Shown: positions 37,402 to 39,236 of the stretch, in pieces
Layout: the number at the start of each line of letters is the position of its first letter
Position numbering within the stretch: the first letter of the stretch is position 1
Assembly: GCA_949285665.1 (NCBI GenBank)
Contig: CASDYC010000001.1
Location: 163,738-227,737, forward strand
Direction of reading: 5' to 3'
DNA length: 64,000 nucleotides
Source: an uncultured bacterium
GTDB lineage: Bacteria > Bacillota_I > Bacilli_A > RFN20 > CAG-826
Notes under the pieces: generated by a model
The model's input: only the letters and a program-made list of their open reading frames with translations
What the model was told of the DNA's origin: nothing
Database searches by the model: none
Position numbers and translations under genes: made by a program

Positions 37402-39186
37402 TTATTTTCCCTCCTTATGTTGTTTTTCAATTAATAGAATTTTTCTTAACTCTTCTGCATATTTCAGTTTATTTTTTTCATCTAGTTCAGATTTAATTTT
37501 TGAATTTAATAAAGCCTTTCTTTGCTCGATTTTTAAATCAAACAATTTTTTAGAAAATAGGTTTTTATCAAACGCATTATTTGAACCATTGTTATATAAA
37601 CTTATTATTTCATCAGAAAGATCGTTACTACTACTTTCTTGTGAAATAAAATCAACTATTTTAGTTATATCATTTATTGAAAATTTTGAATAATAGTCTT
37701 GCAAATAAAATGTTATGGAAGAATAAATATTGTTATAAAAATATGACTCTGATTCTATAAACATATCAAGTGCTTTCTTATTTGTGAGAATGTAAGTAAT
37801 AATATTATTTTCCAATTTATTTAACTTAACATTCTTGCTAAGTTCAGAATTTTTTTCTTTTTTATTATTCGAACTAGAAGAAATTTTTTTATTACTAACT
37901 TCATTATTATAATTTTTAATTTTACTTTTCCAATAATTGATAATATTAACTTTTGAATATCCAGTTAAAGAAACAACTTTATCTAAAAGAGTCTCTTTAT
38001 CTAAAGAAATAGAGCAGCTTGAATAAATTTCAAACGTATCATCTATAAACTTCTTTTTTGAAGAATTATCATTAAGATTATTTGAACCTATTTTTTCAAG
38101 TATAAACTCTAATCCATCTTCTAAATCATTTAAATATTTTAGTAACGCATCCTTTCCAAATTTATCAAATATATCTCCTGAATCTTTTGCAAGACTCGAT
38201 TTTTTAACTACTTTAAAGTTAATTCCTTCTTTAAAAAGATGCTTTGCAAGGATAAATTCACCATTTTGCCCTGCATCATCATTGTCCAAACATAATCTTA
38301 TTTCGCATTTTAATAATTTAAAACTGTTAAATACTTTTTCATTGGTTAATGCTGTACCCATTAAAGCAACACAAGAATTGATATTTGCTTTAAATAAAGC
38401 AATTGTATCAACAAATCCCTCCACAATATATAAGAAATTGTCTTTTTTACAATAATTTTTTGCACTTGAAAAATTGTAAAGAATATCGGATTTATGAAAA
38501 ATTACAGTTTCTGGAGAGTTTATATATTTTGGTCCATTATCACTTTCAAGAAATTTTCTTGCGCTTAATCCAACAAATTCACCATCCAAATTAGTTATTG
38601 GAAATATAATTCTTCCGGAATTTTTATCATAATAATTTCCATTTTCAAATCCGCAAATTCCAATATCTTGCATTGTTTTAATAGAAAAACCACACTTCAT
38701 TAAATAATTAATGCTATCTTGTTTGTTTATTGGAGCATAACCAATCATGAATTGCTTTCTTATTGCAGCATTTAAACCTCTTTGATCACAATAAGTTCTT
38801 GCTTTTTCTCCACTTTTTAATTCAATCATCATATTATAGTAATTAACTAAAGAAGACATGCATTCTTTTTCTTTTTCAAATTGATCAACTTTTTTATTTC
38901 TAATAACTTTTATTCCGGCTAAATCTGCAGCTTTATACAATGCATCTAAATAGGAAATATTTTCGTAATTAGAAATAAAATTAATCAAATTTCCGCCTTT
39001 ACCGCATGTAAAACATTTGTAAATTTGTTTTTCTTTTGAAACATGCATAGATGGTGAATGGTCATCATGAAAAGGACATAATCCTATATAATCTTTTCCT
39101 CTTTTAGATAGATTTATATAACTTCCAATGACATCCACAATATCTAATTTATTTAATATTTCATCAGCATTTATATAATTATTCAC
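37402..39186 (-). CDS. dnaG: DNA primase
   Basis: Synthesises RNA primers at the fork. It has the CHC2 zinc finger (CPFHDDHSPSMHV, CFTCGKGG), the Toprim core (YIVEGFVDTIAL, CLDNDDAGQNG) and a diverged C-terminal helicase-binding region. 594 residues. It starts with GTG 39186 behind AGGAG; both the start and SD lie within a periodic TAG array. dnaG-rpoD is the conserved macromolecular-synthesis order. Confidence 0.94.
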   Translation of the reverse strand: MNNYINADEILNKLDIVDVIGSYINLSKRGKDYIGLCPFHDDHSPSMHVSKEKQIYKCFTCGKGGNLINFISNYENISYLDALYKAADLAGIKVIRNKKVDQFEKEKECMSSLVNYYNMMIELKSGEKARTYCDQRGLNAAIRKQFMIGYAPINKQDSINYLMKCGFSIKTMQDIGICGFENGNYYDKNSGRIIFPITNLDGEFVGLSARKFLESDNGPKYINSPETVIFHKSDILYNFSSAKNYCKKDNFLYIVEGFVDTIALFKANINSCVALMGTALTNEKVFNSFKLLKCEIRLCLDNDDAGQNGEFILAKHLFKEGINFKVVKKSSLAKDSGDIFDKFGKDALLKYLNDLEDGLEFILEKIGSNNLNDNSSKKKFIDDTFEIYSSCSISLDKETLLDKVVSLTGYSKVNIINYWKSKIKNYNNEVSNKKISSSSNNKKEKNSELSKNVKLNKLENNIITYILTNKKALDMFIESESYFYNNIYSSITFYLQDYYSKFSINDITKIVDFISQESSSNDLSDEIISLYNNGSNNAFDKNLFSKKLFDLKIEQRKALLNSKIKSELDEKNKLKYAEELRKILLIEKQHKEGK

Positions 39187-39236
39187 TAATAATCTCCTAA
39201 TAAACGACTAAAAAATTACTATTTTTTAACTAATCA
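39182..39236. repeat. 11-bp phased array 4 (glyS/dnaG, CTA on +)
   Basis: CTA at 39186, 39197, 39208, 39219 and 39230: five perfect units at exactly 11-bp steps (TAG on the - strand, the sense of both genes). The unit at 39230 is the glyS TAG stop; those at 39186 and 39197 contribute to the dnaG GTG start and AGGAG SD. This is the cleanest copy in the window. Confidence 0.88.

Follow-up and report, generated by a model that had tools for sequence, protein, structure and literature searches.

Arrays of an 11-bp TAG unit crowd the replication terminus around dif in an order of uncultured Bacilli

Introduction

Why should a TAG recur at exactly every eleventh base pair in the gap between two genes? 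The question is raised by five such units (39178..39232, minus strand, weight-matrix score 39.9) that fill the space between a class II tRNA-synthetase gene and dnaG in the genome of an uncultured bacterium. We analysed the whole 64,000-nucleotide stretch around them (hereafter the window; C1:163738-227737 of a 1.03-Mb genome, 25% GC), together with the rest of the genome and its relatives. The closest named loci, judged by gyrA, belong to uncultured Bacilli metagenome-assembled genomes (MAGs), including Candidatus Fiminaster equi.

Results and discussion

The 11-bp step and the unit

A first-pass annotation of this DNA had listed six arrays; all are present at the positions it gave, and the phenomenon is larger than it described. 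The unit is TAGTAGWTWWT (11 bp). Using an 11-position weight matrix built from six of the genome's own arrays and chained at exact 11-bp steps, we detected 10 arrays in the window with scores of 28.8-46.9, while arrays scoring at least 20 appeared in one of 200 first-order Markov shuffles (best 21.6). The bare pattern TAG-N8-TAG-N8-TAG occurs 12 times on the two strands of the window against a mean of 0.27 and a maximum of 2 in 200 shuffles of the same kind, and the equivalent triple at every other lag from 5 to 24 occurs 0-2 times each. The strict phasing initially proposed is borne out by the matrix in 123 kb around the terminus: of the steps from 8 to 16, step 11 gave 12 arrays scoring at least 20, step 14 gave one and the rest none. 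The sharp autocorrelation peak expected for TAG at lag 11 did not appear (lag 11, 39 pairs; lag 15, 36; lag 33, 56), because codon periodicity prevents any single sharp peak. The description of TAG as the only fixed element proved too weak, since TAGTA(G) is conserved: positions 1-5 of 207 units in the dif-proximal copies described below carry T in 193, A in 202, G in 202, T in 204 and A in 183.

Six of the 10 arrays occupy spacers where genes begin or end. Besides the five units ahead of dnaG, these are five units just ahead of and running into the dxs start codon (14774..14828, plus strand, score 44.8), the four dif-proximal units (20535..20578, plus, 40.5), five units over the convergent ends of ispG (GcpE) and an AP-endonuclease-2-family gene (31566..31620, minus, 45.2), five between two hypothetical genes (48288..48342, minus, 46.9) and three at the end of lepA on the opposite strand (56485..56517, plus, 32.7). 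A 33-bp array stretch on contig C2 (G000:C2:670-702, locus L075) is identical to window positions 31566-31598. BLAST of C2:1-8000 against the window, with the low-complexity filter on, gave no match, and the identity could reflect copying, an assembly matter or chance.

The arrays had been taken to be confined to intergenic DNA, but the other four lie within genes. One is antisense in relA (five units, 6957..7011, minus, 40.6), and three are in the sense orientation, in dxs (four units, 16198..16241, plus, 28.8), gyrA (five units, 25123..25177, minus, 32.7) and the gene at 41489-42121 (five units, 41755..41809, minus, 35.3). In these three genes, none of the four units that fall in frame reads TAG (TCG in dxs, AAG in gyrA, TGG and CAG in the third), as against nine of the 10 that fall out of frame, so the phase is kept through coding DNA while stop codons are avoided. 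The phase of the arrays running on through genes is a signal at the level of DNA.

Two readings lose most of their ground here. Chance, base composition or a transcription or UTR feature of AT-rich spacers would agree with the six arrays at gene ends or starts, yet it is barely credible given the four arrays inside genes in both orientations, the nearly empty shuffles and a placement fixed relative to dif. The suggestion of an RNA element in 3' UTRs is likewise unsupported, because arrays run through genes both ways and their placement is tied to dif; on the strength of the intragenic arrays in both orientations we rejected it.

The arrays concentrate around the replication terminus

The first-pass annotation had treated the arrays without reference to replication; they in fact lie around the terminus of replication, with one copy at a nearly constant place beside dif. 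The terminus lies within the window, where GC skew turns from positive to negative at about 184 kb of C1 (window position ~20.3 kb), opposite dnaA at 713 kb of the 1.03-Mb genome. At this flip we found dif (ACTTCGTATAATGTTTATTATGTTAACT, XerC arm first; 20697..20724 on the minus strand, C1:184434-184461), the top match to Bacillus subtilis dif in 183 kb. About 1.9 kb away is xerD, encoding the site-specific recombinase of dif (17867..18751, plus strand; TIGR02225 XerD, 332.0 bits against a cut-off of 329.6).

Four exact units occur in the whole genome as seven matches in six places, all within C1:142-212 kb (control, 0). A sequence-only profile made from 13 of the genome's own arrays, with matches taken at an E-value of 0.001 or better, gave 16 matches in the genome, 11 of them within 50 kb of dif; arrays far from dif also exist, for example at C1:4848, 284550 and 444002. 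As the profile was trained on this genome's own terminus region, crowding can be judged fairly in the relatives. Of 56 genomes searched, 28 contained a match. Among the 27 relatives with matches we used 20 with a located dif (three had no dif match and four were outside the dif-search sample), and in these 38 of 55 whole-genome matches fell within 50 kb of dif on the same contig, where 4.2 were expected; the remaining 17 did not. Run over the relatives, the bare TAG pattern discriminates poorly. In the 56 genomes four exact TAG units were matched 36 times and the reversed-pattern control 18 times (29 and 18 once the window's own genome is set aside); our conclusions on relatives rest on the full unit and its position relative to dif.

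In nine terminus regions (the genome itself and eight relatives; a ninth relative, G028, has no dif and was omitted), array density per 100 kb falls over successive 10-kb bins to 60 kb from dif as 15.0, 9.4, 6.4, 3.5, 3.8 and 0, a curve that conveys shape and is not an independent count, since the eight relative regions were fetched for their matches. The gradient and the relatives' matches indicate concentration of repeated sites in the terminus region, not strict confinement. Terminus gene order is conserved among relatives, so shared array placement is partly inheritance, and the genomes compared are not independent of each other. A second, divergent sigma-70-like protein (291 aa, window 40572-41447) adjoins the class II tRNA-synthetase gene and has relatives in seven of the nine other terminus regions.

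Loci chosen by gyrA, and not for their arrays, gave a consistent picture: 16 of 18 Bacilli MAG loci contain arrays (30 in 312 kb), some of them at 47-51% GC, and an array about 2.8 kb ahead of the gyrA start recurs in several. No array scoring at least 20 was found in 62 gyrA loci of Lactobacillaceae and others, a weak control because gyrA need not be near the terminus there. Running through coding DNA and also through loci of 47-51% GC, the arrays are an unusually clean case of helical phase held by selection.

One copy is nearly fixed beside dif

In each of the nine regions, the site most similar to B. subtilis dif is found among arrays, one of which is 86-118 bp away on the XerD-arm side and reads toward dif; in the window this is the array at 20535..20578, 118 bp from dif. 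Next to this observation we set a search for the dif core, again not chosen by arrays, in 147 genomes of the order. The core was present in 104, and 100 of the 104 loci were taken (10 duplicate loci were dropped; G006, G018, G025 and G027 were already among the nine regions); two had too little flank, leaving 98. An array scoring at least 17 is located 80-145 bp beyond the XerD arm, reading toward dif, in 78 of the 98. The opposite strand gave one, the XerC side five and one in the two orientations, and windows shifted by 400-1000 bp 0-2, that is, position and orientation beside the Xer site are fixed, as would be expected of a cer/psi-like element. With a looser core, 88 of 98 loci have a copy within 220 bp of dif; the three alternative placements have 7, 9 and 5. 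Array-to-dif distances range over 85-142 bp and show a periodicity of 10.5-11 bp (resultant length R about 0.70, n = 74, f5/g50 loci set aside), for which the relatedness of the genomes allows no honest p-value.

The 20 loci that lack the copy at threshold comprise three of family f8, one of f4, one of f3, three of f5/g50 and twelve of f1, six of these from genus g22; 10 of the 98 still lack it under the looser core. In the g22 loci a CTACTAAT-type pair stands a little more distant from dif and does not reach the threshold. Some of the misses are more than a matter of threshold, as family f8 has none. In the f5/g50 loci (L193-L199), dif is flanked on either side by several TAGTACTA-type pairs, and palindrome-like TAGTACTAA pairs at 11-bp steps replace the single oriented TAGTAG array.

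The combination of a XerD arm and an array, defined strictly, was found in 21 of 55 genomes from the order and gave 22 matches there, 15 of them at a located dif (control, 4). Outside the order, it matched in four of 340 genomes, none with TTATGTWAA; we regard these as background because the reversed-pattern control gave about 25 matches there. In the sample searched, the array element appears confined to this order.

The terminus location, the copy on the XerD side and the xerD gene 1.9 kb from dif raise the possibility that the arrays are places where SMC is unloaded, through XerD or another protein, as XerD does in B. subtilis at XerD-bound terminus sites according to parts of PMC10945525 and PMC12322038. 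We consider this doubtful, as the unit matches the XerD arm at 6 of 11 positions in its best register and shuffled arms average 6.7.

A DnaA-box sequence accompanies the dif copy

Between the array and dif, the window has a putative DnaA box (TTTTCCACA, 20592..20600, minus strand) that is also found in the genome's own oriC region. Near dif (-250 to +300) the sequence TTWTNCACA reaches 1.28 per kb, about 13 times its density in the remainder of the dif loci (0.094 per kb), and 60 of 100 loci have it there. At +55 to +110 it occurs on one strand in 53 of 98 loci, on the other in six, and in shifted windows 0-1 times. Box and array are found together in 50 of 98 loci, mostly 20-26 or 34-36 bp apart from start to start. 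A box is present within 150 bp of 37 of 52 dif arrays, as opposed to 21 of 128 other arrays, many of the latter at orthologous places.

These boxes could mean that the arrays are DnaA sites at the terminus, either similar to datA/DARS or similar to the unwinding element of oriC (BUS). The marked enrichment near dif speaks for it, as do the DnaA-trios, 3'-GAT-5', which correspond to TAG and have the same orientation to the box, as set out in part of PMC8287927. However, BUS needs a run of three or more NAN triplets behind the box (PMC8287927, in part), a rule to which the unit composition does not conform: its two TAG triplets give way to about 5 bp, and a step of 11 is not divisible by 3. Most distant arrays have no box, and the genome's own oriC region, over 4 kb, has TTTTCCACA boxes without any array. 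We regard a DnaA site of this type as very unlikely.

A further reading is that only the dif-proximal copy matters: it would be a Xer accessory sequence, as in plasmid cer/psi, forming with a DnaA-bound box a phased complex that controls recombination, and the distant copies would be sites for that protein too, but weaker or unrelated. Side, orientation and helical phase are indeed fixed only at dif, and the box is mainly at dif arrays. Distant arrays, however, are equally strong or stronger (up to 46.9 in this genome, against 40.5 at dif) and crowd dif, and the array ahead of gyrA recurs in several gyrA loci. On balance, this is an unlikely explanation, though one to be kept in mind.

Candidate binding proteins and array orientation

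MatP was not detected at an E-value of 0.01 or better in any of 12 genomes, with the Escherichia coli control detected. RTP did not exceed the cut-off in the 12 (two weak matches; the B. subtilis control was above it), and the Rok winged helix did not in 14 (six weak matches). Two of the weak Rok matches, in G035 and G052, look like the RNA polymerase delta subunit. Clustering of the proteins adjoining dif in 70 loci gave no convincing binder. In the window, a 180-aa protein without a credible family (19987-20529) ends 5 bp before the dif array, and a different family, of 187 aa, ends beside the dif array in 29 of the 70 loci. Our search of the open-licence literature found no description of such arrays.

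Could the arrays load the translocase FtsK or guide it toward dif? The dif copy does read toward dif from the XerD side. Distant arrays, on the other hand, are non-polar: 32 read toward dif and 18 away in the nine regions, and the corresponding counts in 20-kb dif loci are 37:1 at 0.5-5 kb, 48:44 at 5-10 kb and 4:40 on the XerC side. Orientation in the 20-kb loci is a property of the individual site, and distant copies that point both ways tell against a polar guide and a fork trap. In the same loci TAGTAG is skewed 400:193 and GAAGAAG 756:146, so that the strong genome polarity of FtsK guides such as KOPS/SRS belongs to the latter and is absent from the former. The FtsK gamma domain, in 12 genomes searched (G038, G035 and G052 among them), is near canonical in one f8 genome that has no dif array (100.7 bits) and weak in nine f1/f3 genomes (26-54 bits); two array-bearing f5 genomes still score 67-76 bits. 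This pattern of scores leaves a small chance for FtsK.

GAAGAAG, skewed toward dif (GAAGAAGT, 93% of 252), is itself a candidate FtsK guide motif of the group.

A proposed role

The first-pass annotation had offered a helically stacked protein on one face of the DNA. This fits the 11-bp steps, the presence in genes on either strand and the phase to dif; none of the searches identified the protein. Three features speak for a protein that contacts one side of the helix and stacks with its neighbours: helical phase is exact, gene strand is of no consequence, and the conserved core is short. We put it at about an even chance that the arrays are a terminus-region DNA element crowding dif whose units serve as sites for such a coating protein, one that would hold the terminus together before division, as MatP does on matS.

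As a working scheme, the putative protein would coat each 11-bp array on one helix face, bound distant arrays may bridge to the dif copy, and the terminus region would thereby be held together around dif before division, with DnaA perhaps taking part at dif via its box. A fuller version, which we rate somewhat less than even, has a dedicated protein stacked on the TAG arrays around dif and an anchor copy in phase with both the XerD arm and the DnaA box; through that copy the replication initiator DnaA would be coupled to the separation of chromosomes as the cycle closes. The element itself offers a geometric link that can be tested, joining dif to a DnaA box and to an array in helical phase.

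Comparison with known systems

Terminus marking is understood in few bacteria, namely those with MatP and B. subtilis. matS, the site of MatP, is a single palindromic site. In both that system and ours many short sites lie in the terminus region and are denser toward dif, as is said of E. coli matS density in part of PMC10945525. The arrays differ in consisting of tandem direct units at 11-bp steps with a fixed copy at dif and a DnaA box, and no MatP was found in the 12 genomes searched. The RTP/Ter fork trap of B. subtilis was rejected on the two grounds given above, RTP below the cut-off and non-polar distant arrays.

The XerD-bound sites of B. subtilis (XDS) are likewise terminus sites linked to Xer; the array unit is unlike the XerD arm of dif, so the arrays are set apart from them via that arm, not via the XDS motif itself. 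Accessory DNA of plasmid Xer sites lies on the XerC side. Like cer and psi, the dif copy is candidate protein-binding DNA beside a Xer site, but here the site is chromosomal dif, the DNA is on the XerD side, and it consists of TAG arrays and a DnaA-box sequence, where cer uses ArgR and PepA (PMC5357621, in part). BUS resembles the dif copy in that TAG-type triplets come after a DnaA box and read the same way, and differs in its run of triplets, which the unit breaks after two, and in its place, the dif copy being at dif and not at the genome's own oriC.

Rok prefers AACTA and TACTA and shares 36 bound regions with DnaA, according to part of PMC6212790, and TACTA is on the other strand of every consensus array unit. 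No Rok above the cut-off was found in the 14 genomes, and ordered 11-bp terminus arrays are not among its features in the portion of PMC6212790 that describes them.

The best reading of the sequences is that the 11-bp TAG array would be a previously undescribed terminus-organising DNA element, probably bound by a protein and with an anchor copy at dif, for which, by analogy, matS may be the nearest working counterpart and Rok the nearest in binding. The arrays offer a sequence-defined handle on terminus marking in this uncultured order of Bacilli.
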